From a virus, in IMG/VR virus record IMGVR_UViG_3300028030_000019, positions 1 through 47,223 of that record: a stretch of DNA of 47,223 bases; one strand, given 5' to 3'. The position numbers and the translations under genes are program-made. Positions 1 through 47,223 of the stretch are shown one piece after another. Each line of letters opens with the position of its first letter. The first letter of the stretch is position 1. The notes below the pieces were generated by a model. That model worked only from the letters and a program-made list of their open reading frames with translations. It had not been told where the DNA came from and did not search any database.

Positions 1-30
1 GGGTTAAAAGATTTATATGATATAATTTTA
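1..30 (+). repeat. 30-bp direct repeat, copy 1 (cassette boundary)
   Basis: This 30-bp stretch recurs exactly at 942..971. It holds the right arm of a terminator-like hairpin (gggtt) followed by an extended -10 promoter. At the second copy it lies just after the end of one regulatory gene and before the next leader RNA, so it marks the joint between tandem cassettes. The window opens inside it, so a further cassette may lie to the left. Confidence 0.9.
18..26 (+). promoter_or_regulatory. Extended -10 promoter of cassette 1
   Basis: The sequence TGATATAAT is a perfect sigma70 extended -10 element. The expected start of transcription is about nucleotide 31-33, which coincides with the first strand of the leader pseudoknot, so the RNA should begin base-paired. 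The same TATGATATAAT motif recurs on the plus strand at about 957..966, 3276..3285, 4173..4182 and 9256..9265. Confidence 0.75.
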
Positions 31-133
31 TTAATACTTTTAGTGGGAGTCCAATTCCAAATATAGAAAGTTCTTATCACTCGGTAAGGACTTCTACTAA
101 AGGTATTAATTTAGATGTTTGAATTGGACTCTC
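30..133 (+). ncRNA. Pseudoknot leader RNA, element 1
   Basis: Three helices can be read directly. Helix A pairs 30-44 with 96-110 (15 bp, one G:U). Helix B pairs 45-57 with 121-133 (13 bp, one G:U). Helix C pairs 68-76 with 85-93 (9 bp, one G:U). The strand order A-B-C-C'-A'-B' makes A and B cross, so this is a pseudoknot. A' contains the AAAGG ribosome binding site (99-103), and B' covers codons 3-7 of the gene starting at 115. The fold should therefore block translation, which suggests a regulatory switch or autoregulation. Elements 2 and 3 have the same topology with different sequences. Confidence 0.75.
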
Positions 134-915
134 AATCATCAACCTTTACTTATTATTGTCCTATTACTTTTAAAGGAATAAAGGTGCAAAATCTTATTAC
201 TATTGAAAATACACAAGCTGTTGTATCATTAAATACTATTATTAAATTCTCTGAACTTGGAGAACAAGCTATAAAAAAAATAGTTAAACGAAAGATAAAT
301 ATGTTAATTAAGAATGGATTAAGTTATCCATACGATTTGTCAGAAGACTTAAATTATTCTGAAATGAAATTTGATGAAAAATCTTGTACTTTGCTTTTAA
401 CATTATTGCCAAATAATGAAATTACTGAAAAATTTAAAGAAGAACTTGTAAACCAATTTTTTACTATGAGAGATGAAATTCAAAAGATTAGAGAAGATGC
501 TTTAAGACTTGAATTTAAAGAAGAAAAAGCTAAAGCAATAAGAGAAGCTAAGAAGCCTAAAGTATATGCTAATGGGTTCATGAGCTTAAAAGGGTGTTTG
601 GTAGAGCTAAGAGAACAAGGTATAGAAACTATAAAAGAGAATGAAGCATGGGATATGTTGGTTCACTATGGTTATGTGAAAACAATGCCTAAAATTACAA
701 TTAAAAGAGATATAGATACAGATAATGAAATAGCTAAGTATGTTATGGCTTCCAGAACCAGCTATGGATTACCTACATTTGATTTAAAGTTTATTAATGA
801 CTTAGTGTATCAATATATTCAAGATGGTAAACCTAAACCAGAAGAAGCTGATGAGTTAAGAGAAAGATTTTCTAAAGCTGCTATAAAATATGTAGATGAA
901 AATCTACTTATTTAG
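115..915 (+). CDS. Antirepressor-like regulatory protein, cassette 1
   Basis: This 266-residue protein is modular. Its N-terminal half (about 1-130) is not recognised, although the stretch around residues 95-125 resembles the end of a Rha-type domain. A short Lys/Glu-rich helix follows. The C-terminal domain (about 142-260) begins with AKKPKVYANGFMSLKGC and is shared with the genes at 1216 and 3452. Such swapped N-termini on a common C-terminus are typical of phage antirepressor and KilA-N/Bro-type regulators. The start at 115 has AAAGG 11 nt upstream, inside the leader pseudoknot. The gene ends in a 28-nt sequence that is repeated at the end of the next cassette. Its DNA-binding or partner-binding role is inferred from family context only. 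Confidence 0.75.
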   Translation: MFELDSQSSTFTYYCPITFKGIKVQNLITIENTQAVVSLNTIIKFSELGEQAIKKIVKRKINMLIKNGLSYPYDLSEDLNYSEMKFDEKSCTLLLTLLPNNEITEKFKEELVNQFFTMRDEIQKIREDALRLEFKEEKAKAIREAKKPKVYANGFMSLKGCLVELREQGIETIKENEAWDMLVHYGYVKTMPKITIKRDIDTDNEIAKYVMASRTSYGLPTFDLKFINDLVYQYIQDGKPKPEEADELRERFSKAAIKYVDENLLI

Positions 916-934
916 AACCAAACAAAGAACTCCC
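907..934 (+). repeat. 28-nt 3'-end repeat, copy 1
   Basis: This 28-nt sequence spans the last codons, the stop and the start of the terminator of the first cassette gene. It is identical to 1930..1957 at the end of the second cassette gene. With the 30-bp repeat at 1 and 942 it gives short homologies on both sides of the cassette, suited to duplication or exchange by recombination. Confidence 0.85.
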
Positions 935-945
935 ATTTGGGGGTT
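928..945 (+). terminator. Hairpin after cassette 1 gene
   Basis: AACTCCC pairs with GGGGGTT (one G:U) across a 4-nt loop. The hairpin follows the stop codon at 913-915 by 12 nt and runs into the promoter of cassette 2. It lacks a clean U-run, so termination may be inefficient. Confidence 0.5.
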
Positions 946-971
946 AAAAGATTTATATGATATAATTTTAT
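942..971 (+). repeat. 30-bp direct repeat, copy 2, with promoter of cassette 2
   Basis: This is identical to 1..30. It carries the extended -10 TGATATAAT (about 958-966). The predicted transcription start, about 973, coincides with the first base of the 23-bp stem of the second leader RNA. Confidence 0.85.
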
Positions 972-972
972 A

Positions 973-1146
973 GACAATTTCAATAAGTCTATTGGAAGTT
1001 TTCTTTGGCGAGTCTTTCTGCCAATGGACTTATTGAAGTTGTTACAAGTTTACTGAATGGTGTTCAAGCCACTTTCTAGGTATTCAGAGATGAATACCAT
1101 TGAGTAAACTTATTGTTTTGTAAGATTAGAGAGTAGCTTGAACACC
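973..1146 (+). ncRNA. Pseudoknot leader RNA, element 2, with extra 5' hairpin
   Basis: A 23-bp hairpin with three G:U pairs comes first (973-995 with 1021-1043). A pseudoknot with the same strand order as element 1 follows. Helix A pairs 1046-1058 with 1099-1111 (one mismatch). Helix B pairs 1059-1069 with 1136-1146 (11 bp, perfect). Helix C pairs 1079-1085 with 1092-1098 (7 bp). A and B abut with no spacer, as in element 1. G:U pairs in place of A:U or G:C favour an RNA rather than a DNA structure. The gene starts 70 nt downstream, so unlike element 1 this one does not cover the ribosome binding site. Confidence 0.75.
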
Positions 1147-1215
1147 TATCTTCAAATCTTCATTAATTACTCACTTTTTATATTATTGTTCATACTTTAA
1201 TTAAAGGATAAATCT

Positions 1216-1938
1216 ATGAAAGATTTAATTGAATTAACACCAACAGAGAGTTTCTTGCAAAATGCAGGATTTACAATGACATTAAAAGATGTAGCTGACC
1301 AATATGGGAAAGAGAATTATAATTTAGTTAGAGATTTTAATTCTATGATTTCTACACTTGATGAAGATAGTCTTAGCCACCTCAAATTTGAGGGGGCTAA
1401 ATATAAAGATAAACAAAATAAAGAGCGACCAACATTGGTATTAGATTTTAAAACACTTATTTGGTTTATAGCTAAATTTGACCATAAATTGAGATTAGAT
1501 ATTATAAATTATGCTTTTGCACAATTAGAAGAGACAAACAAACAAGCTATAGAACAAGCTGTTAAAAATGCTAAAAAACCTAAAGTATATAAAAATGGTT
1601 ATATGAGTGTTAGAGGTTGTATAGGTGAAGCATTTGATGATATAGAAGAAGATATACTTGAAACTGATGTTTGGAACGCTTTAGTATGGAATGGACTAGC
1701 TAGAACCAGAGCTAAGATAACAATTAGAAGAGAAATACCTGAAAACCTAGATGGAATAGTAGGGAAAATGAATTTAAATATACCTACATATAGACCTGAT
1801 ATAGTTAGAGAAACTTACAATAAATGGCTAGAAGCTGGTTCTCCTACTAAAACAGAGTATGAAAGACTAACAGAAGAATTTAAACAAATAGCTGATTATT
1901 ATGAAGCTAAGATAGAAGAAGCTAAAAAGCTTATTTAG
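1216..1938 (+). CDS. Rha-like phage regulatory protein, cassette 2
   Basis: This 240-residue protein has an N-terminal Rha-like domain (about 10-108). The recognisable features are the NLVRDFNSMI helix and the closing LRLDIINYAFAQLEE segment. A shared C-terminal domain (about 122-240) begins AKKPKVYKNGYMSVRGC. Rha-family proteins are phage regulators, some of which interfere with growth in particular hosts; the exact target here is unknown. The start is well supported by AAAGGA 7 nt upstream of ATG. The C-terminal domain is clearly homologous to those of the genes at 115 and 3452, which shows that the three genes arose by duplication with exchange of the N-terminal module. Confidence 0.8.
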   Translation: MKDLIELTPTESFLQNAGFTMTLKDVADQYGKENYNLVRDFNSMISTLDEDSLSHLKFEGAKYKDKQNKERPTLVLDFKTLIWFIAKFDHKLRLDIINYAFAQLEETNKQAIEQAVKNAKKPKVYKNGYMSVRGCIGEAFDDIEEDILETDVWNALVWNGLARTRAKITIRREIPENLDGIVGKMNLNIPTYRPDIVRETYNKWLEAGSPTKTEYERLTEEFKQIADYYEAKIEEAKKLI

Positions 1939-1957
1939 AACCAAACAAAGAACTCCC
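1930..1957 (+). repeat. 28-nt 3'-end repeat, copy 2
   Basis: This is identical to 907..934. It covers the end of the Rha-like gene, its TAG stop at 1936-1938 and the left arm of the terminator. Confidence 0.85.
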
Positions 1958-1968
1958 TAAAAAGGGAG
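1953..1968. terminator. Bidirectional terminator between cassette 2 and nrdB unit
   Basis: CTCCC pairs with GGGAG across six nucleotides. It lies between the stop of the plus-strand Rha-like gene and the end of the minus-strand nrdB transcription unit. In the minus direction the hairpin follows the small hydrophobic ORF ending at 1971. Confidence 0.55.
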
Positions 1969-1970
1969 AA

Positions 1971-2048
1971 CTACAATATAACTGATAATACCATACTGAT
2001 AATCATAGATACTTTCAATGCTATAAGCCCTAAAATAAAGTCTTTCAT
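1971..2048 (-). CDS. 25-residue hydrophobic peptide downstream of nrdB
   Basis: An ATG at 2048 has a strong AAAGGAG site about 7 nt upstream. It opens a 25-codon frame, MKDFILGLIALKVSMII followed by SMVLSVIL. Almost the whole peptide is one membrane-spanning helix. It is the last frame of the minus-strand nrdB unit and is followed at once by the bidirectional hairpin. A second, 8-codon frame with GGAG lies between it and nrdB (start near 2100). Function is unknown. It could be a real micro-protein or chance, and the ribosome binding site is the main support. Confidence 0.4.
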   Translation of the reverse strand: MKDFILGLIALKVSMIISMVLSVIL

Positions 2049-2152
2049 AATCTACTCCTTTCATAGAATCAATTCTAAGCCCTTTTCTTTTTTGTACTCA
2101 TACTCTAACTCCTATTAAACGCTTAGAATCAGAGTATGTTATGTTATGATTT

Positions 2153-3187
2153 TTAGAAATCATCTAAATCTATTGAACCAATAGAATAGGTTTTTACTTG
2201 AGTTTCAAAAAAGTTAGATTTAACATTGTTTCTTTCATCTATTCTATCTTTAATAAGTTTTTGTAAACTAGTAGTTGGTCTTTCTGGAAATGGTAATGGA
2301 AGATGTAATATTTTAGCTCTGTCATTGACAAAATTCTCTATAGTGGTTTGAACCAATTCTGGAGTAAGTCCAAGTATAGGATATGGTTCTAATGATTTAG
2401 CATATTCCATTTCTATATCATAAGCCTCAATAAGCATATTAAGCATCTCATCTTTTACAGAAAAAGTAAAACGGTTCTCTCTATATATTGTATTTACTAT
2501 ATTTGCAAATATAACCAGATGCAGAACAATTTCGTCTGTAGCGATTTCACTAAGTCCATCACTACTACCTTGTATTTTATCTCCCATAACAAAAATATAT
2601 GTAAATCCTGTTAAAAAGAAAATACCTTCAAGGCACACACTACACATAGCAGACATAAGAAAATCTTTTTGAGTTTCACCATTAATATATCTTGCATACA
2701 TATCTGCTATTCGTTGGTTCTTAAGAGCTATGCTTGGTTCTGTCTTATATAAATCAAAGATTTCATTTGAGTTACCTACATTATCAAGTAAAAAAGAATA
2801 CATGTCCGAATGGACTATCTCTTGTTCAGCTTGTTTAATTATAGTTGCTCTAACTATTTGATTATTAGCTTTAGGTGCTAAATCTATTAAAAAGTTAGTT
2901 TGAATTGAATCATCAAAAGATAGTTGGCTAAATACTCTTTTATATATCTCTTTTTCATTTGGTGATAATAAACTATAATTCTTTTTTTCTGTTGATACAT
3001 TAACTTGTTGAGGAGTCCAAAATCTATTCATAGCCATTCTATAAAGTTCTTTACTCCATTTATATCTAGGTCTATTAAAATCTATAAAACCTGTATTTAG
3101 TCTAGTAATGATGTTCTTTGGTTCAAATATTCTCTCATCTAATATTTCACAGCCATTTGGATTAAAGTATTTTGTAGAAGTTATCAT
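2153..3187 (-). CDS. nrdB: Ribonucleotide reductase class I small subunit (R2)
   Basis: This is a 344-residue R2 protein, the subunit that makes the radical used by NrdA to reduce ribonucleotides to dNTPs. Expected iron ligands can be placed at D93 (DSIQ), E123 and H126 (EIVH), E187 (CLEG) and H223. The radical tyrosine is Y130 in HSDMY. At the last metal site the text reads DEIVLH, that is E219-x3-H223, whereas the family has E-x2-H, so one residue appears inserted. No nrdA is present in the window, so the partner would be host-encoded or lie elsewhere in the phage. The start has AAGGA 8 nt upstream. The gene stands alone on the minus strand between two plus-strand regulatory cassettes. Confidence 0.93.
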   Translation of the reverse strand: MITSTKYFNPNGCEILDERIFEPKNIITRLNTGFIDFNRPRYKWSKELYRMAMNRFWTPQQVNVSTEKKNYSLLSPNEKEIYKRVFSQLSFDDSIQTNFLIDLAPKANNQIVRATIIKQAEQEIVHSDMYSFLLDNVGNSNEIFDLYKTEPSIALKNQRIADMYARYINGETQKDFLMSAMCSVCLEGIFFLTGFTYIFVMGDKIQGSSDGLSEIATDEIVLHLVIFANIVNTIYRENRFTFSVKDEMLNMLIEAYDIEMEYAKSLEPYPILGLTPELVQTTIENFVNDRAKILHLPLPFPERPTTSLQKLIKDRIDERNNVKSNFFETQVKTYSIGSIDLDDF

Positions 3188-3276
3188 ATCTATTCCTTTT
3201 TAAATCCAAAGAATAGCACAATAAGAGTTTAGAACCAATAAGAGATGTTATCTATTGTTTTTCATTAAGTAATCTA

Positions 3277-3285
3277 TGATATAAT
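3277..3285 (+). promoter_or_regulatory. Extended -10 promoter of cassette 3
   Basis: TGATATAAT matches the extended -10 elements of cassettes 1 and 2. The predicted transcription start at about 3291 is the first base of helix A of the third leader RNA. Confidence 0.75.
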
Positions 3286-3290
3286 TCTAA

Positions 3291-3405
3291 TAAGAACTTT
3301 ATAGGTGTCTAACCATAGTCTGGTTACTCTATATCACTTGGTATAGGGTAGCCACTGTATAGATAGCTGTAAGGTTCTTAATTGTAATGACTATGATTAG
3401 ACACC
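3291..3405 (+). ncRNA. Pseudoknot leader RNA, element 3
   Basis: Helix A pairs 3291-3302 with 3369-3380 (12 bp, two G:U). Helix B pairs 3304-3320 with 3389-3405 (16 of 17 positions). Helix C pairs 3321-3335 with 3340-3354 (15 bp, three G:U, 4-nt loop). The order A-B-C-C'-A'-B' and the near-abutting A and B match elements 1 and 2, although the sequences do not align. The KilA-N gene starts 46 nt after the structure. Conservation of topology without sequence is strong evidence that the fold itself is selected. Confidence 0.78.
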
Positions 3406-3451
3406 ATAATCATTAAACCTTAAAATTATCATTGTCTGAAAGAAAAAAGCT

Positions 3452-4114
3452 ATGGATTTAGAACTACATAGTTTTAGTAAAGAAGCTATATCAAGTAAAG
3501 AAGTAATGTTTGCATTACAGAATGGTTTGTGGATTAATGCTACAACAACAGCTAAAGAGTTTGGTAAACGATTGGATAATTATTGGAGAGATGAAAAAGA
3601 ATACATAGAAGCATTGGCTGAACTTAACTCCCTCAATATGAGTGATTTAAAAATAACAAAGCAAGGTAAATATGGTGGCACTTACTTGCACCCAGAGCTT
3701 GTGGTTAATTTTGCAAGATATTGTTCTCCCAGATTTGCTATAGAGTGCGATAGGTTTATTAAAGCAGAAATGATTAAAGTTAATCAAATTAAAACAGAAG
3801 CTTTGTTAGAACAAGCAGAGAAAGAAAAACAAAGAGCAGTAGCTGAAGCTAAAAAATGTAAGATATATGATGATGGAACAATGACAGTAAGAGGAGTTAT
3901 CCAACATCTTGGATTAGATGTATCTGAAGATTTTGTATGGGAAGCTCTTACATGGAAAGGGTGGAATGAAGATATTACAAAAGTTACTAAATATAGAAGA
4001 CTACCTAAAGATACTCCAAGTTATATAGGAACTAATAGGGGTTCACAAGCACCTACATACTACCCACAAGTAGTTAAACAAGCTGTAATTGACTATATAA
4101 AACAAATTGATTGA
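3452..4114 (+). CDS. KilA-N domain regulatory protein, cassette 3
   Basis: This 220-residue protein has an N-terminal KilA-N domain (about 15-108). Its hallmarks are WINATTTAKEFGKRLDNYW, a GTYLHPELVVNFARYCSP segment and the closing FAIECDRFIKAEM. A short Lys/Glu helix follows, then a C-terminal domain (about 132-220) starting AKKCKIYDDGTMTVRG. That domain is a diverged, shorter version of the one in the genes at 115 and 1216. KilA-N is a DNA-binding module of phage and large-virus regulators. The ribosome binding site is weak (GAAAG-rich), which fits translation controlled through the leader. A perfect palindromic terminator follows. Confidence 0.85.
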   Translation: MDLELHSFSKEAISSKEVMFALQNGLWINATTTAKEFGKRLDNYWRDEKEYIEALAELNSLNMSDLKITKQGKYGGTYLHPELVVNFARYCSPRFAIECDRFIKAEMIKVNQIKTEALLEQAEKEKQRAVAEAKKCKIYDDGTMTVRGVIQHLGLDVSEDFVWEALTWKGWNEDITKVTKYRRLPKDTPSYIGTNRGSQAPTYYPQVVKQAVIDYIKQID

Positions 4115-4118
4115 TTAT

Positions 4119-4142
4119 CAACTGCTCAAATTTGAGCAGTTG
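4119..4142. terminator. 24-bp perfect palindrome terminator after KilA-N gene
   Basis: The two 12-nt arms are perfectly complementary, with CAACTGCTCAAA on the left. The palindrome begins 5 nt after the stop of the KilA-N gene and is followed by a pyrimidine-rich run, as expected for an intrinsic terminator. Confidence 0.7.
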
Positions 4143-4174
4143 TTCCTCTTCTTCAGCTTATTTAAGTAATCTAT

Positions 4175-4182
4175 GATATAAT
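4175..4182 (+). promoter_or_regulatory. Extended -10 promoter pointing into the convergent structural genes
   Basis: The motif TATGATATAAT (4173-4182) matches the three cassette promoters, and its upstream AAGTAATC is shared with the cassette 3 promoter. No plausible gene follows on the plus strand. The transcript would start near 4189 and read antisense into the gene ending at 4279. Hairpins 4189-4196 with 4215-4222 and 4241-4247 with 4258-4264 lie downstream. It may drive a small antisense RNA or be the remnant of a fourth cassette. Confidence 0.55.
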
Positions 4183-4278
4183 TTTATTGCTATTTAGAGT
4201 TTATTTAGCGATTATAAATAGTTTCATTTTCATTTGTTATCTCTACTGGTTTTATCTAGTAGAGAACTCCTTGTTATC

Positions 4279-4836
4279 TTATAAAGTAGTTCTAGCTAAT
4301 CTTCGTCTAAAATCTTCATTTTCTTGCAAATATCTATCTATTTCACTAGTTGTAGCACCTCTATTGACTTGTCTAGCCCTATATTTAGAGGTAACATTTT
4401 CATTATATGCTTTAGCAGCATTAGTATAATTAGCTCTACCAAGTTTTCTATTAAATCTATTGTTTCTAACTTGTTCTCTATAGTTTTTATATGCTAACCA
4501 ACTATTAAAAGTACCTAATCCAATCTTAGCAGCATCTAAAGTATTTCCAATATTCCAATCAGAAAAAAATGAAGTTGGTTCTGTAGTAGGTGGTCTATAT
4601 GTTTTAGCTAGATTAGAACCAATATAATCACTTTGCTGAGTGCTTATTCTATCATCATACCATCTAGCATATGGATTATCTATACTTGAAGGCATTAAAT
4701 AGTCTAAACTTGTATTCATGTCTGTATTATTTAAATAACCAACTCTATTCCATTCTTTAGTTAGACCTTTTATTTTATCATCAAAAGTAAGATAATCTTG
4801 TCCTGCCATTCTATAAAAATCATCATATTTTCCCAT
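4279..4836 (-). CDS. Probable virion or tail-associated protein, 185 residues
   Basis: I do not recognise this family. The protein starts MGKYDDFYRMAGQDYLTF and has a hydrophilic N-terminal half. A central stretch (about 95-120, NIGNTLDAAKIGLGTFNSWLAY) could be a short amphipathic or membrane segment, and the C-terminus is Arg/Asn-rich and helical (about 120-185). It is the last of four consecutive minus-strand genes (4279..9213), with 3-nt spacing from the 769-residue gene, and this group lies next to the virion RNA polymerase. Small ejected proteins of podoviruses often look like this, so a virion role is inferred from position and composition. Confidence 0.6.
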   Translation of the reverse strand: MGKYDDFYRMAGQDYLTFDDKIKGLTKEWNRVGYLNNTDMNTSLDYLMPSSIDNPYARWYDDRISTQQSDYIGSNLAKTYRPPTTEPTSFFSDWNIGNTLDAAKIGLGTFNSWLAYKNYREQVRNNRFNRKLGRANYTNAAKAYNENVTSKYRARQVNRGATTSEIDRYLQENEDFRRRLARTTL

Positions 4837-4839
4837 ATT

Positions 4840-7149
4840 TCACTCCTCTATATATAAATTACTAATATCTAAGAATTTATCCAAATCATTTAATATAAAA
4901 TCAATAGATATATCTTCTACATATTCTATTATATCTGTGTTTAATACACGATTATAATATTCTTCTGGTGATTCTAAAAAAAGATTAAAATCTATATTCT
5001 CTTTTGAGCCACCAAGCTCATCTTGTTTAGCTTCTAGTTCTCTTGTACGTTGGTTCAGAAGAGTTAAGAAGTCTTTCATAGATTCCTGCTTTTCTATAGC
5101 CATATCTTCAATAACAGCATCAGTAGCATTTAAAGCACTTGAAGCTAAAAGCATATATAGTTCTTTATCGCTTGTAACCTTGCCTGTTTCAACAGTTAAA
5201 GCTATGTAGACTATAGCTATTAGCCCTCTTAAAAAATTGTTATTTGTTTGCTCTAACGACCATTTAAGAGCATAATTTAGACCATAAGATATAGCTATAG
5301 TTTCTGTTATAGTAGTGAGAACAACTGATAACGAAGTACCAGCACCTAATGTAGCGACAGTGACTGCTATTGCTACTACAACAAGTACAATTTGTATAAA
5401 ATTTATGAACCAACCTTTCTCATACCAATGTAGATGCTGTGTTGTAGAAGCAAAATTCAATAGTTGTATAGAACTATCATATAACAAATATCTATCTGTA
5501 AAATTACATCTATTTAAAGTTTCCATTAAAAGAGGAAAAGAAAAATCTATACCACTTGCATCTTGGAATGTCATAGCATCTAATAGATTATAAGTATATC
5601 CTTTTTTATGCCCACCATCTTTAATGACAGAACTTATAGATATTGTATCAACATCAATAATAGTGTATTCTGTAGTATCTTGATAAACTAATCTCATGAC
5701 AGCTTTAACAAAATTACTTTTTTGATAATTTTGAGAATTGTCATCTGATACTCCATTATTTCCAAGTTCATCGAGTGGTTCATCTACTTGCATAGCAAAG
5801 ATATACATTGTATATTTATGTGTATATGATATACCAGCAAATGTCTCTTTTTTAATATTTTTAATCTCTATAGATTTATTATACCTAGAACCAGAAATTT
5901 GTTGATTTATATGTTTTATATTGAATAAATAAGTATTCTGTTGATACCCATTATTATTAATAGTATTATTTGTAGTTGTATATTGTTTAATTAACTCAAA
6001 TGTCTTATATAATGCTTTTATATTGGATTTTGTTCTTCTATTGACATTTAATCCAAATTCAACAAAAGTATCTTTTGTATGTGAAAATGTCTCATTAGCT
6101 TCTTGTTGGTCAACTGGGTCATTATTCTTTCCTGTAATACTATTATGTAAATCAAGCATAGATATACCAAGTTTTTTACATATAGCTTTAGTGTCGTTAT
6201 ATCTATTTGGATTGCTATTTTTCATATCTATAACATATTCACCATTAAATTTCATAGTTATTACAGGAGTAATAGCGAATATACTATATGTATTAGCATT
6301 GGTTTCACCATCTTTATCTTCAAGTTCTGGAATAGCATTAGAACCAAGTTGATAAGTCCAGTAATAACAACATTCTCCTCCATCAACTCCAAAGATTACT
6401 ATTATCTTATTAAGTTTATCAGAAGCGTCTGTATTGGCTGTTCTTACATCATGATAATATATATCATTAGTAGCCTCGTCTCTTAATTGTAAGCCAAATA
6501 TAGGACATTCTGTACCATCATTAAGTACTTTTGTCATTTTAACTATATCTTGAATTCTAAGGTCTAAATTTGTTATACTTCTGTTTCCACTTCCATTTGA
6601 GCAATCATTATCTGGTAAGGTTATAGTTAAGTTAGGTTCATCAAAGTAATTATTATTAATTACTTCAGTTATATGGACTATACCATTATTTCCAACAGTA
6701 TATCCATTATTTTCCATATAGTAATAAGTCAAACATTGCATAGATGGAGTTAATGTATCAGAGTACCATTTGATTGTTACATCTTCTTGCTCTGAACCAG
6801 CTACACCAGCATGATTGAGTAATTCATTAAAAAGAGTATTATTATAATTTGTAGCTTCTCCTGCTACAAAAAATTTAGGAAGTCCATCTAATGACTTATT
6901 TTCTATATATTTAAATGTTTGCTTAAGTTTTAACATTTTGCCATATAATAATTCATCTTTTATCTCTTCACCTATAGAGGTGTTTTTAATATGAGCTTGT
7001 TGGTTCAGAATAAGTATTGGTTGTTTTTGTTTTGAATCTATAGAAAGAAAAGGTTGAGATGAAACAGTAACTGTTTGTATCGTTTCACCTTTAAATAAGT
7101 CTCCAAACCAATCACTAATAGCATGTAATCTTTCAGAGAACCAACTCAT
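4840..7149 (-). CDS. Large structural protein, probably tail, 769 residues
   Basis: The N-terminal 520 residues are rich in Asn, Thr and Ile, with beta-type alternation, as in tail or fibre proteins. A strongly hydrophobic segment follows at about 580-650 (WFINFIQIVLVVVAIAVTVA and further helices). The last 100 residues are acidic and helical. The hydrophobic part suggests membrane insertion during DNA ejection. No enzymatic motif was seen. The gene starts directly after the stop of the 513-residue gene (7150) and ends 3 nt before the next, so it is co-transcribed with neighbouring structural genes. The family is not recognised, and the tail/ejection role is an inference. Confidence 0.6.
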   Translation of the reverse strand: MSWFSERLHAISDWFGDLFKGETIQTVTVSSQPFLSIDSKQKQPILILNQQAHIKNTSIGEEIKDELLYGKMLKLKQTFKYIENKSLDGLPKFFVAGEATNYNNTLFNELLNHAGVAGSEQEDVTIKWYSDTLTPSMQCLTYYYMENNGYTVGNNGIVHITEVINNNYFDEPNLTITLPDNDCSNGSGNRSITNLDLRIQDIVKMTKVLNDGTECPIFGLQLRDEATNDIYYHDVRTANTDASDKLNKIIVIFGVDGGECCYYWTYQLGSNAIPELEDKDGETNANTYSIFAITPVITMKFNGEYVIDMKNSNPNRYNDTKAICKKLGISMLDLHNSITGKNNDPVDQQEANETFSHTKDTFVEFGLNVNRRTKSNIKALYKTFELIKQYTTTNNTINNNGYQQNTYLFNIKHINQQISGSRYNKSIEIKNIKKETFAGISYTHKYTMYIFAMQVDEPLDELGNNGVSDDNSQNYQKSNFVKAVMRLVYQDTTEYTIIDVDTISISSVIKDGGHKKGYTYNLLDAMTFQDASGIDFSFPLLMETLNRCNFTDRYLLYDSSIQLLNFASTTQHLHWYEKGWFINFIQIVLVVVAIAVTVATLGAGTSLSVVLTTITETIAISYGLNYALKWSLEQTNNNFLRGLIAIVYIALTVETGKVTSDKELYMLLASSALNATDAVIEDMAIEKQESMKDFLTLLNQRTRELEAKQDELGGSKENIDFNLFLESPEEYYNRVLNTDIIEYVEDISIDFILNDLDKFLDISNLYIEE

Positions 7150-8691
7150 TTAAACTATATACCCTGTAAGAGTATTACCTGTTAAATTACCTGAACTATC
7201 AAGTTCAGAAATCATTATTTTATCATCTTTATTGAATGGAGTTACATCTCCACCATCTTTTCTATAATACCATTTATTATCTGTGGCAGTAATAACAGTT
7301 GAGATTAGACCAGAAGATTGCGTATCTATTTCAACTAAAACAGAACCACCAATAATGCAAGTACCATTAAATAAAAGAATTGTATCTTTAGTAAATTTAT
7401 AATAGTTACAGATAAGTGTACCAATTTTATATATACTGAAAGGTTCTGATTTTAGTTGTAAATTCTTTAAAGATGTCTCATGTAAGATATTCATATTATC
7501 AATAGATGATGCTATTCTGTTAATTGTAGCTTCAACACCACTTGTTTCATTTGTAGCTACATCTCTTTTAGTCATATTCATAGCAAGATTTTCATCATCT
7601 ATCTCTTGAGCTACAGTTACAGTCCAAATATCTATAAGTTTAGATAACATATCTTGTTGTTGTTTATCTGTGAAACCTTGTTTTTGTCTAGTATATAACT
7701 CACCTTTAATAGTATTCAAATCTCTTTGACTGATTCCATTTAATTGAAGTTCACTTTTTTGAATTTCACAATATCCTGTTTTACATATAATTTCATCTTT
7801 CTGAGCAGGTAAAAGTTGATTTGTTCTATAATCTATCTCATTTGTCTTAGACTCAATATTTAATTTTTGAACTGGTAGTATATTGTCTAATTCATAACAA
7901 CATTGGTCACCCTTGCATTTAATTAATTTTATTTCATATTGTAACTTAGTAGCTTCAAGTGGTAATATAGTAGTATTTTTATATTGACAACTAACTGTTT
8001 CACAGTTTATTTTATTTGTTTTAGAATTAATCAATCCAACATTAGCTGGTAAAACAGCTGTTGTATCGTATTCTATATTAGCTGTCTTAGCTTCTATATT
8101 AGCTTTTTCTGCTGGTAATATATTTGCTACCTCATATTGACATTTATTAATTCTACATGTAACTTCGTTTGTTTGAGCAGTTATTAAGGCTGTTTTAGCA
8201 GGTAATACATTAGAAGTATCATACTCTATATTAGCCGTTTTAGCAATTATATTAGCCTTTTCACTAGGTAGTATATCGCTTACTTCATAGCTACATTTTG
8301 AAGTATCACATACTACATTATCTTTTCTAGCATCTATTAATACTTTATTAGCAGGTAATATATTATTAGTATCATAATCAATATTATCTTTCTTAGAACC
8401 AAGAAGAGCTATATTAGCTAACATCTCATTCCTTTGTGTAGGTAGTATATCTGATAATTGATACCTACATACATCTGTTTCACAATTTATTTTAGCTACT
8501 TGAGCATCAATAAGCTCTTTATCTTTTTGCCACTGAAAAGCATCATTTGCTAGTGGTTCGAAAGCAGCTGCTATTATTTGAGCTTGTTTAGCCTTGTCAA
8601 TTCTTTTCTCTTGTACCCAAACAGTAGTTCTAGCTTCTATTGAGTCTAATAGTGCATTAAACGTATCTACTACATCTGCATTGGTAGCCAT
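7150..8691 (-). CDS. Repeat-containing structural protein with LP coiled-coil units and Cys pairs
   Basis: Residues about 60-310 are built of short helical repeats, each ending in ILP, VLP or LLP (near residues 83, 112, 140, 163, 191, 214, 242, 271 and 294). Repeats of the type ILPAEKANIEAKTANI occur in tail-associated proteins of many phages. Unusually, cysteine pairs C-x4-C recur with the units (C70/75, C128/133, C179/184, C230/235, C259/264, C303/308). The C-terminal 150 residues look like a globular beta domain. It abuts the 173-residue gene upstream and the 769-residue gene downstream. A role as tail fibre, needle or connector is likely but not proven. Confidence 0.7.
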   Translation of the reverse strand: MATNADVVDTFNALLDSIEARTTVWVQEKRIDKAKQAQIIAAAFEPLANDAFQWQKDKELIDAQVAKINCETDVCRYQLSDILPTQRNEMLANIALLGSKKDNIDYDTNNILPANKVLIDARKDNVVCDTSKCSYEVSDILPSEKANIIAKTANIEYDTSNVLPAKTALITAQTNEVTCRINKCQYEVANILPAEKANIEAKTANIEYDTTAVLPANVGLINSKTNKINCETVSCQYKNTTILPLEATKLQYEIKLIKCKGDQCCYELDNILPVQKLNIESKTNEIDYRTNQLLPAQKDEIICKTGYCEIQKSELQLNGISQRDLNTIKGELYTRQKQGFTDKQQQDMLSKLIDIWTVTVAQEIDDENLAMNMTKRDVATNETSGVEATINRIASSIDNMNILHETSLKNLQLKSEPFSIYKIGTLICNYYKFTKDTILLFNGTCIIGGSVLVEIDTQSSGLISTVITATDNKWYYRKDGGDVTPFNKDDKIMISELDSSGNLTGNTLTGYIV

Positions 8692-23315: not shown

Positions 23316-23344
23316 TTTTTAATCCTTTTTGTATATATTCATGT

Positions 23345-23350
23345 ATTATA
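23345..23350 (-). promoter_or_regulatory. Promoter -10 for the helicase operon
   Basis: The minus strand reads TATGTATAAT with the hexamer TATAAT at this site, 30 nt upstream of the helicase start. The region around it (23337-23485) is crowded with ATGTATA/TATACAT half-sites, which may be operators. Confidence 0.5.
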
Positions 23351-23435
23351 CATACATTTTACTTAAATAAAAATTAAATATATACTACCTTGTGTATTCT
23401 GAACCCCTTAGAACCTATGTATATTATGTATAACC

Positions 23436-23469
23436 TGTATATTACTTTTTACATATTTTGTAATATACA
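23436..23469. other. Inverted repeat in the thyX-helicase intergenic region
   Basis: TGTATATTAC pairs with GTAATATACA across 14 nt. It sits in the 220-bp non-coding region 23316..23525, which otherwise holds repeated TATACAT-type half-sites and an AC dinucleotide tract at 23506-23514. This could be a regulator-binding site for the helicase promoter. Confidence 0.45.
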
Positions 23470-23525
23470 ATTATACATGTTATACAGGGGTTTTGTAAGC
23501 GTATGCACACACACACTATACCCAT

Positions 23526-23542
23526 GTGGTAAAATTTACCAC
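23526..23542. terminator. Palindrome at the end of thyX
   Basis: GTGGTAAA pairs with TTTACCAC around a single central base. The TAA stop codon of thyX lies inside it. It is the probable transcription or processing end of the thyX operon. Confidence 0.5.
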
Positions 23543-25311
23543 TTAATCAATTCTCGCATGTTTTCTGCTAATAGTCTAATCTCTTGTTGAGCATGTTTAT
23601 CTATTCTCAGCTTGAAGAAATTATCTAGTTGACTTTTATTCCATGCACTCCATATAGTTGTATAGAGACTTTGTGGTAACACAGCTCTAGCTCTTTCAGG
23701 TTTCATACCTTGTTTAACCAACTTATTGTATGCTAATACAAGATTATCGTTCAAATCTTCCATACTATCATCTGGTTCATAAAACTCAAAAGGTATTTTA
23801 GAACCACTCACAAACCTTCTACTATTATGAACGACAATACCATTAGCTACATAATTTTGGTCTTTATGAGCTACTTCAATATCATAAGTATCAACAATAC
23901 CAACTTCTTTTATTGAAATAACCATACCATATTTAATAGTTTGTTTTGTTATTTTATACTCTTCAATACTTTTAGATTTATGACATTTTTTACATAATAT
24001 TTGCATATTATCTTCATCAAATGCTAATTTTGGATATAAAGATACTGATTTAATATGGTCTAATTCTAATTCTTTAGTAGAACCACAATAGTTACATTTA
24101 TGATTATATTTATCAAGTATTTTTGTTCTCCTAAATTCTGCTTCCCAATAACTTGATGCTCTTTTCCTCCAACCTCCTTTTGTAGTTCCTAGAGGTTTTG
24201 ATAATTTTTTTGAAATCATTTGTCTTGTATTATCTGAATGTATTCGACCAAAACAATGACTATTTTTACCTTTTATACCTTTATTCCATACATCATAACA
24301 AGAAGAAGCTTCTTTTTGTGTATATTGGATATTATGCTTTCTTAGCCATGTTCTTATTGTATTATAATTTAAGCCTTCAATTTTAACCCAATCTTTTAAC
24401 CCAATACCTTTTTCTAAGTAATATTCTTTTTTTTCTTTTAACCACTCTTTATTTTTATATAATTTTTGACCATTAATAGCTAAAAAATCTCCTTGTTTTA
24501 TATCTTTTAATTTTTTCCAACCATTTATAGTTAAAAATTTATGATTTTTGCTCGTTTCTATTTCATAAAATTTACCATTAGTTCCATATTGAATTTTTAT
24601 TTTAAATACTTTTTTCTTTCCTGTATAAAATACTTCATTTATTGGAACATATATGAAGCGATTTAAATCAAAATCATAAGTTTTTATTTTTGGTAATCTA
24701 TTATTAAAATGGTTTTTATATTTATATTGTTGATTATATAAATCTTCTATTTTTCTTTTACCTTTTGATGTTGTTATTAAACTATTACCAGATATACATA
24801 ACTCTTGAAAGTTTACTCTATGCCTTTGAGTCTGTCTAGCTACAAAGATAGGTATCTTCATTTTAAATACAAAAAAATTATCTTTTATCACTTGTATTTC
24901 ATTTGGTTCAGAATAATAATTATTTAGTGTATTGTCTAATCCAACATCATATATTAATGCTCTAAGATTAGTAAGCAGATATTTACTATCATCTATTAGT
25001 TCACCATATTTTATAATATGAGCTACATAGGAATAGTTAATGTCTATCTTGCTGTTAACAATATGTTCTATTTGGCTCATATTTAAACATATAGGGCAAA
25101 ACTCAAAGCTACTAGATGGTAACATGCTTGACTCTTTAGAAAGCCTTTTAAATAGCTTTTCTGGCTTTGTAGCTTCATCTTTACCAACACAAATAGATGC
25201 TACTTTTGTTATAGCATTTATTCTTGATTGGTTATCTACGTTGGCTCTACTAAAATCATATAATTCAACAAACCCAATTCCATCATCATATAAATATCTT
25301 CTGTTACTCAT
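23536..25311 (-). CDS. thyX: Flavin-dependent thymidylate synthase ThyX with in-frame intein
   Basis: The host protein is two exteins (residues 1-171 and 497-591, 266 residues when joined, a normal ThyX length). ThyX makes dTMP from dUMP using FAD. The signature starts RQTQRHRVNFQEL and continues after the intein as SRRFVSGS. Once spliced it reads RHR-x6-S, one residue shorter than the classical RHR-x7-S. The intein sits inside this active-site motif, so the enzyme should be inactive until splicing. The gene is overlapped at its start by a 43-residue membrane ORF. ThyX beside NrdB shows that the phage supports dNTP supply. Confidence 0.92.
   Translation of the reverse strand: MSNRRYLYDDGIGFVELYDFSRANVDNQSRINAITKVASICVGKDEATKPEKLFKRLSKESSMLPSSSFEFCPICLNMSQIEHIVNSKIDINYSYVAHIIKYGELIDDSKYLLTNLRALIYDVGLDNTLNNYYSEPNEIQVIKDNFFVFKMKIPIFVARQTQRHRVNFQELCISGNSLITTSKGKRKIEDLYNQQYKYKNHFNNRLPKIKTYDFDLNRFIYVPINEVFYTGKKKVFKIKIQYGTNGKFYEIETSKNHKFLTINGWKKLKDIKQGDFLAINGQKLYKNKEWLKEKKEYYLEKGIGLKDWVKIEGLNYNTIRTWLRKHNIQYTQKEASSCYDVWNKGIKGKNSHCFGRIHSDNTRQMISKKLSKPLGTTKGGWRKRASSYWEAEFRRTKILDKYNHKCNYCGSTKELELDHIKSVSLYPKLAFDEDNMQILCKKCHKSKSIEEYKITKQTIKYGMVISIKEVGIVDTYDIEVAHKDQNYVANGIVVHNSRRFVSGSKIPFEFYEPDDSMEDLNDNLVLAYNKLVKQGMKPERARAVLPQSLYTTIWSAWNKSQLDNFFKLRIDKHAQQEIRLLAENMRELIKW
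23824..24798 (-). mobile_element. Intein with HNH homing endonuclease in thyX
   Basis: The insert is 325 residues. It begins with Cys172 in CISGNSLITTSKG (block A) and ends in VVHN before Ser (blocks F and G: YDIEVAHKDQNYVANGIVVHN overall). These are the residues needed for protein splicing, with Ser as +1 nucleophile. Between the splicing halves lies an HNH nuclease: CNYCG, then LDH, then ILCKKCH, giving the zinc-ribbon Cys pairs and the central His. All key residues are present, so both splicing and homing may be active. A plain HNH group of this kind is less usual in inteins than LAGLIDADG. Confidence 0.92.
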
Positions 25312-34711: not shown

Positions 34712-35539
34712 TTAATCTATATATCCATCATTTCTAAGCATCTGAACCAAATCAAGAAACTTATCTTCATAATAGACTACTTGATAAGGTTTTTCTTTTA
34801 CACTTGAAGCAAATTTATTATAACCATACCAATTACTTATTTTTACAAACTTTTTCATTGTTTTGCCTTTATAATTATAGGTTTCCATAAGTCCTATTTC
34901 TATAAGATAATCATTCCACTCTGGAGTTTTTACTTTTATATCAAATTTATTTAAAAGATATGTTGCAGAATAAGCTCTAACATCTCTTCTAATCTCTGTT
35001 ATTGTTTCACTTAAAGCTTCACCTACATCTTGTGGCAGAATACGCTTAAATTCGCCATTAGCTAATGCTATAGGGTCAAAATTAGCTCCCATATTTTGTA
35101 ATTTTTTAGCTAAATCAACTTTCTTAGAAATAATGTCTTGTCTTTTAAGCTCTTCTTCTGCCTCTAATAAAGCTATCTCTTTTTTTATTTTTTCTATTCC
35201 AAGAGTATTTTTAGCAATCTTTTCTATATTGATAAAATATTTACGAACTTTCTTTCCTTTTTCTGTTTGAGACATCATAGCTATATGTTTTGCAGCATCT
35301 ATAGTGCAAACATAAATAGACTGAATTTGACCTGTTTTTGACTTCTCACCTTTTTGGGTGAGCTTTATATAGTCAAAGTCTTCTTCAAGCATAGCTCTTT
35401 TAATTTGAGCTTTACACCAGCTTGTATAATCTTTCTTAATTTCTAAATAGTTGTAAATATCTCTCATATCTACACTATTAACTTCTTCATCACCTATTTT
35501 AGTTCTTTTAACTTTAATTAGTTCTTCTATAGTTTTCAT
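34712..35539 (-). CDS. AntA/AntB-type antirepressor
   Basis: This is a 275-residue protein. Residues about 15-115 match the AntA/AntB antirepressor domain: VDMRDIYNYLEIKKDYTSWC, then QKGEKSKTGQIQSIYVCTID and AAKHIAMMSQTEKGKKVRKYF. A coiled-coil linker (120-150) leads to a C-terminal region of KilAC type (about 185-275, SATYLLNKFDIKVKTPEWND, then MKKFVKISNWYG). Such proteins inactivate a prophage-type repressor. Five antirepressor-class genes occur in this window, but no cI-like repressor is visible. It lies 10 nt after the RecB/Cas4-like nuclease gene. Confidence 0.85.
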   Translation of the reverse strand: MKTIEELIKVKRTKIGDEEVNSVDMRDIYNYLEIKKDYTSWCKAQIKRAMLEEDFDYIKLTQKGEKSKTGQIQSIYVCTIDAAKHIAMMSQTEKGKKVRKYFINIEKIAKNTLGIEKIKKEIALLEAEEELKRQDIISKKVDLAKKLQNMGANFDPIALANGEFKRILPQDVGEALSETITEIRRDVRAYSATYLLNKFDIKVKTPEWNDYLIEIGLMETYNYKGKTMKKFVKISNWYGYNKFASSVKEKPYQVVYYEDKFLDLVQMLRNDGYID

Positions 35540-46937: not shown

Positions 46938-47197
46938 ATTAGCTCCCATTTATTTTCTTGCCAATAATAGAATATAGTACAGCCATAAGCTCTGCTCATA
47001 TAATCTATTAGCTCTTCTTCTTCATTTTCATTTATTGAGACCATGAAATATGCTAGATTGTCATCATCACAACATATAATGTATTCTTTGCTAGGTAATT
47101 TAGAACCACCAGCTAACTCTTCTGGTGTATCATTTTGATAACCTAAGTGAAAGAAAAACTCTTTTTCATCTTTTATCCAATTCTTTATTATTTTCAT
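46934..47197 (-). CDS. Hypothetical acidic protein, 87 residues
   Basis: This is a small alpha/beta protein with FFHLGYQNDTPEELAGGSK, a CCDDDNLAYFMV strand and an acidic helix. The family is not recognised. AAGGAAT lies 5-6 nt upstream of the ATG. It is the first complete gene at the right edge; the 26 bases to its right contain no further feature that I can support. Confidence 0.6.
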   Translation of the reverse strand: MKIIKNWIKDEKEFFFHLGYQNDTPEELAGGSKLPSKEYIICCDDDNLAYFMVSINENEEEELIDYMSRAYGCTIFYYWQENKWELI

Positions 47198-47223
47198 TGT
47201 TATTCCTTTGTTTGTAGTTGGTT

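Follow-up and report, generated by a model that had tools for sequence, protein, structure and literature searches.

The 47,223-nt viral sequence IMGVR_UViG_3300028030_000019 (hereafter the window, meaning the whole of this stretch) contains three leaders, E1, E2 and E3, in which long helices cross one another between a promoter and a regulator gene, raising the question of what such an arrangement does. An earlier note on this DNA described them as pseudoknots of one topology, in which helix B crosses helix A and a third helix, C, lies inside, and proposed a new class of leader RNA that controls antirepressor expression, perhaps by binding a ligand or a protein. As judged from the sequences, each element is better described as a 5'-terminal hairpin that is antisense to a target upstream of the start codon; the antisense segment is the 5' strand of B (B5) and the target is its downstream strand (B3, or B'). 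Complementarity, selection at the RNA level, orthogonality of the hairpin-target pairs and their repeated placement are observed directly. We consider it probable, at about 0.58, that each element is a leader-encoded antisense module controlling an antirepressor gene, whose hairpin would be released, pair in trans and repress.

Crossing helices in the window and its relatives

When all helices on both strands of the whole window were scanned for pairs in which a B helix starts immediately after an A helix and crosses it, E1, E2 and E3 were the top three candidates (scores 27, 27 and 26; the next reached 21), and 100 local dinucleotide shuffles gave scores of at least 25 at a rate of 0.02 per window. 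The three elements thus stand where the earlier note placed them, as do the promoter boxes and genes around them, except that a further hairpin, H0 (973-1043), lies between promoter 2 and E2.

Fifteen complete elements were compared, 3 from the window and 12 more, in four phage records, with A helices of 12-33 bp and B helices of 9-23 bp. The relatives are G001 (76 kb, from the same metagenome, whose major head protein shares up to 46% identity with N4-like phages), G002 (9.8 kb), G003 (14.5 kb) and G004 (53 kb). The genes behind the elements are mostly of the KilA-N or Rha/Ant type, the others being a helicase gene, a weakly RepL-like gene and a short open reading frame (ORF). The G001 elements precede an ORF1 orthologue, a KilA-N gene, an ORF2 homologue, two more KilA-N genes, the helicase gene and the weakly RepL-like gene; G002 has one element, before an ORF2-family gene; those of G004 precede an ORF2-family gene, a KilA-N gene, a short regulator-like gene and the short ORF; and the G003 homologue has no element. 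Some of the relatives' elements were found by the same helix criterion, so that their helices are not independent proof, and those found through their gene neighbourhood (the G001 and G002 leaders) are the stronger evidence. The order promoter, hairpin, B3, gene is common to the window and its relatives; what is conserved is this order and the complementarity, not the sequence.

The leaders had been called unrelated in sequence, which holds only in part: E1 resembles one G001 leader and E2 another, as diverging families, and the C loop reads ACUY in seven elements (it is AGAGAU in E2 and G1_KA3, and loop-type members have no C hairpin). Leaders and genes have been reshuffled, because like genes carry unlike leaders: the ORF1 orthologue in G001 is about 90% identical in protein and 87% in DNA with a wholly different leader, and the close E1-like leader in G001 fronts a KilA-N gene of the ORF3 family. 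Upstream of E1 in G005 (L034), positions 134-189 carry a 56-nt remnant of the ORF2 3' end that matches window 1902-1957 exactly, a recombination footprint at these genes.

Among helices of score at least 10, under strand-symmetric scoring, G-U exceeds A-C mismatches by 46 to 10 (p=1.2e-6), and because of this excess selection is seen to act on the sense RNA. The bias is significant at every helix-score threshold from 9 to 12, and not significant with weak chance helices included (85:65, p=0.12). Since the members do not align by sequence, the covariation check proposed in the earlier note was carried out on homologous pairs, with no whole-set covariance model, and compensatory changes are present. 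The A stems of G4_KA and G4_rha differ by five double and four single compensatory changes with none broken, and E2 and G1_KA3 differ by double changes (three in C and two in B) with no broken pair in C or B.

The B5:B3 duplexes have a mean energy of -25.5 kcal/mol in cognate and -9.9 kcal/mol (standard deviation 3.8) in non-cognate combinations, with one exception among the latter, G4_ORF2 with the repL-like target (-24.8). Cognate hairpin-target pairs, including those of paralogous modules in one genome, are mutually orthogonal. Three further hairpins are orphans without a B3: H0 in the window, one in G001 and one in G004. The G001 orphan is a copy of the E2 hairpin, identical in 77/77 nt to window 1046-1122 within a region where nearby coding DNA is 74-86% identical, and its duplex with the E2 target of the window reaches -33.9 kcal/mol; recent recombination alone could explain the 77-nt identity. 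The best partner of H0 among the targets is that of G4_rha (-18.6 kcal/mol). In the phage genomes compared, the sense RNA contains no further exact 14-nt match complementary to a window hairpin, apart from the sequences' own opposite strands.

Competition between the helices and the target site

The crossing helices A and B had been drawn as coexisting. In 12 of the 15 elements A continues into the 5' strand of B (by 8-9 nt in E1-E3), so that the top of A and B are mutually exclusive and compete; in E1 and E2 the top of A also takes the 3' strand of C. By rough geometry, A and B could form simultaneously in most C-bearing members if bent, whereas they could not in G4_KA and G4_rha with A intact. 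In these two loop-type elements A is 31-33 bp long, and B3 follows directly with no linker, so that in the geometric model B would be excluded in cis unless most of A opens; A (-33.6 and -45.8 kcal/mol) is also much more stable than B (-21.7 and -24.0 kcal/mol). B is nevertheless retained at 12-13 bp, with a sequence that differs between the two, as intermolecular antisense pairing predicts.

B3 precedes the start codon by 41-69 nt, measured from its end, in the 13 leaders for which a start was assigned, and in none of them does it cover the Shine-Dalgarno site. It tends to lie in the loop of a small hairpin, D (score sum 103.5 versus 80.4 +/- 5.7 in shuffles, z=4.05). The spacer after B3 contains 99 C to 19 G, compared with 248 C to 320 G in upstream windows used as controls (odds ratio 6.7, p 3e-16). 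Rho favours C-rich, G-poor unstructured RNA, and the spacer may be a Rho substrate; no intrinsic terminator was detected in the leaders. Many leaders carry a motif, TTAT(T/C)ATTGTY, downstream of B3 and ahead of the start codon (150-161, 1180-1191 and approximately 3424-3435 in the window); TTATTATTGTYC shows no genome-wide enrichment (4 found, 2.5 expected) and is unexplained. Leader peptides were rejected as a general feature, the frame from B3 to the Shine-Dalgarno site being open, by eye, in two ORF2 leaders and not in E3. The parts of the window elements are listed in Table 1. A fourth promoter copy, TGATATAAT at 4174, has no clear element behind it; a short hairpin region runs into a converging gene, and 4174-4265 is possibly a small RNA or a decayed leader.

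Table 1. Positions of promoters, hairpins, targets and regulator genes in the window (helices as 5' strand:3' strand)
Feature	Position	Strand	Details
Extended -10 promoter 1 (TGATATAAT)	18-26	+	From sequence
E1 5' hairpin	30-110	+	A 30-43:97-110; C 68-78:83-93 with ACUC loop; B5 44-57
E1 extended A	30-52:88-110	+	23 uninterrupted bp, counting G-U
E1 target B3	121-134	+	Pairs with 44-57; partly in loop of small hairpin D, 114-122:132-140
ORF1, Rha/Ant-like regulator	184-915	+	Likely GTG start at 184; reading frame opens at ATG 115
Extended -10 promoter 2 (TGATATAAT)	958-966	+	
H0 orphan hairpin	973-1043	+	23-bp stem; no B3 here
H0 loop TTTGGCGAGTCTTTC	1004-1018	+	Homologous to G004 elements that retain a B3
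E2 hairpin	1046-1111	+	A 1046-1058:1099-1111 (extended 1046-1066:1091-1111); C 1079-1086:1091-1098; B5 1059-1079
E2 target B3	1126-1146	+	B 1059-1079:1126-1146; 11-bp core 1059-1069:1136-1146
ORF2, Rha/Ant-like regulator	1216-1938	+	
Extended -10 promoter 3 (TGATATAAT)	3277-3285	+	
E3 hairpin	3291-3380	+	A 3291-3303:3368-3380 (extended 3291-3311:3360-3380); B5 3304-3320
E3 helix C	3321-3335:3340-3354	+	ACUU loop
E3 target B3	3389-3405	+	B 3304-3320:3389-3405; inside hairpin D, TAATGACTATG..CATAATCATTA
ORF3, KilA-N regulator	3452-4114	+	KilA-N domain

Proposed mechanism and its alternatives

Transcription from the extended -10 promoter would first yield the 5'-terminal hairpin (A, with or without C), with B5 in its loop or upper 5' stem, and then the matching B3, the unstructured spacer and the regulator gene, an order that is directly visible. 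The hairpin RNA would be freed by processing or early termination, accumulate, and pair in trans with B3 of nascent or mature leaders; pairing could occur in cis too where A can open. Action in trans draws indirect support from the steric exclusion of B in G4_KA and G4_rha and from the orphan hairpins. Pairing would keep the antirepressor gene silent, the likeliest routes being premature termination of the Rho type or decay by RNase III, which are preferred because of the distance of B3 from the start codon and the Shine-Dalgarno site. In C-bearing members, B5 would at first be partly paired in the A stem and be freed by strand exchange, with C forming along with B. Swap or loss of a module would alter immunity specificity. 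It is conceivable, though doubtful, that the hairpins act as an RNA-based immunity system among N4-like phages, in which orphans are kept to silence the antirepressor genes of co-infecting relatives and modules are swapped to change the immunity type.

Several observations weigh against an antisense module. When W_E1 and G1_KA2 are simply aligned, clean compensatory changes are few and some pairs are broken, and the A helices of E2 and G1_KA3 did not align. In isolated C-bearing hairpins, most of B5 is paired (mean unpaired 0.26-0.50). In C4, the antisense RNA of phages P1 and P7, the target is on the ribosome-binding site, unlike B3. Known N4-like phages are usually regarded as strictly lytic, which leaves an immunity role unclear. 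Finally, the minimum-energy nested fold from RNAfold has B in cis and A open in 10 of the 15 leaders, all of them C-bearing.

Because RNAfold favours B with A open in these ten leaders, refolding in cis is possible there, and the main rival, which we regard as unlikely, is a strand-exchange switch: A would form first; once B3 has been transcribed, B would displace the top of A as C forms, with the timing or end state of refolding setting downstream expression within one molecule and no RNA acting in trans. Such a switch would account for the run of A into the 5' strand of B in 12 of the 15 elements, for the preference for B plus C in the full leaders, and for the 3' strand of C, which in C-bearing members is often common to C and the top of A. 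It sits poorly with the two members that are unable to form B in cis while A, far the stronger helix there, is intact, with the persistence of orphan hairpins that have no B3, and with the fact that neither state covers the Shine-Dalgarno site or yields a detected intrinsic terminator.

Binding of a protein to a structured leader, for example feedback by the encoded KilA-N or Rha protein with the pairing merely shaping the site, is improbable. Regulators with KilA-N or Rha-type domains are indeed encoded and the ACUY tetraloop recurs, but this loop is missing or different in others, the ORF1 orthologue (protein 91% identical) stands behind a leader of other sequence, and like leaders stand before unlike genes. 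Nor is binding of a ligand supported, because the invariant is the complementarity of hairpin and downstream site, whose sequence is free to change; apart from the ACUY loop of C, no riboswitch-type conserved ligand-binding core was found. Ligand binding would require a conserved pocket, and recognition by antisense pairing accounts better for what is seen. A search of the window against Rfam at the gathering threshold gave no family match, in agreement with the earlier view that no named family fits, and matches with E up to 5 (window 1-4400 and L003/L004) included no C4; the weak miRNA-precursor matches among them reflect only long hairpins. The proposed class of leader RNA is thus supported as real, RNA-level and structurally conserved before antirepressor-type genes, and is unsupported as a ligand- or protein-binding pseudoknot that unifies them.

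In the leader of ColIb-P9 repZ, a hairpin loop is complementary to a downstream site, and the resulting pseudoknot beside the repZ start activates translation. The present hairpins are likewise complementary to a downstream leader site, in most members occupy the very 5' terminus of the RNA and, if bent, could form crossing helices in most C-bearing ones; a pseudoknot that activates translation or blocks 5' exonucleases is nonetheless very improbable, since B3 is far from the start codon (41-69 nt) and the geometry would be impossible in G4_KA and G4_rha. Inverted repeats acting at the DNA level, as operators or recombination sites, were already disfavoured and are hardly credible: leaders and genes are reshuffled and flanked by repeats, but the G-U over A-C bias is strong on the sense strand and the order is one-way and anchored at the promoter.

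Genome context and related RNA systems

The window and contig IMGVR_UViG_3300028030_000052 share an exact 127-nt overlap (100% identity) at both window ends (1-127 and 47097-47223), because of which they are taken to form one ~74 kb N4-like genome, the window making up about two thirds of it. A 3583-amino-acid ORF encodes an N4-type virion RNA polymerase (phrog_2206, E 8.5e-122). The left break of the window coincides with the E1 leader, possibly reflecting a mixture of leader variants in the sample. Searches against named phages by blastn (window 1-8000) and tblastn (ORF2) gave no match, and a protein scan of genome contigs gave no further relatives. A loop-pattern search returned only G001 again with a supporting hairpin; a cluster of matches in Campylobacter UBA1713 was discarded as an unrelated repeat. 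Comparable elements are absent at the KilA-N genes of phage D3, LoVEphage, Mcat13 and a Helicobacter prophage, and from the whole N4 genome. The idea of a phage-plasmid was set aside, RepL matches being only weak.

Elsewhere in the window, another Ant-type regulator gene (34712-35539, minus strand) lies within an operon without a leader element of its own. A 591-amino-acid ORF (23536-25311, minus strand) matches HNH endonuclease and thymidylate synthase, which points to an intein or a homing insertion, and it adjoins an intergenic inverted-repeat cluster (23331-23486) with two weaker A-B candidates (scores 19 and 21). Among the relatives, G002 (L004) has two group I introns (RF00028) in its head-gene region (1881-2142 and 2536-2773), and G001 has a long hairpin with a 36-bp arm near its RepL-like genes (L011, about 4760-4914, minus strand) and a repeat-rich contig end (L014, 19084-19293).

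On the best reading, the elements would work most like P1/P7 c4, N15 CA RNA and P4 CI RNA. P1/P7 c4 is cotranscribed with ant. The likeness to C4 is that of an antisense RNA in the 5' leader, upstream of its own target and of an antirepressor-type gene, although cotranscription is here read from sequence only. In C4 (RF01695) specificity resides in variable antisense loops, and P1 and P7 differ by a few bases (PMC5320573). The elements are not C4 members, because the covariance model finds no match and the target is off the ribosome-binding site; the three-stem C4 fold is not recognised either, and in contrast to C4 the antisense part is a single long block (9-23 bp) and each phage carries several orthogonal copies.

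The N15 anti-immunity (CA) RNA is reportedly a small processed RNA that controls the antirepressor gene (Ravin 1999, reference 7 of PMC4488713). Control of such a gene by a small processed RNA would be common to both systems; N15 belongs to another phage family, and the present phages carry multiple modules per genome. In P4, an untranslated primary transcript is processed to give the CI RNA, which base-pairs with complementary sites in that transcript and so brings about termination of transcription (PMC4825925); P4 has two target sites and controls replication genes, whereas each of the present leaders has a single target downstream and the genes concerned are mostly of the antirepressor type. 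IsrK of Gifsy-1 is a leader small RNA that shares a transcription unit with the antirepressor gene downstream of it (PMC4825925), but it ends at a Rho-independent terminator, of which none was seen in these leaders, and activates anrP in trans.

If the antisense reading is true, the leader-encoded antisense control of antirepressors found in P1/P7, N15 and P4 would extend to N4-like phages, where each genome has several orthogonal copies and there are also orphan hairpins, including one that fits the target in a co-occurring relative. The elements would then represent a natural collection of orthogonal hairpin-target pairs, and may offer a clear test of whether sequence-free structure conservation marks RNA immunity specificity.

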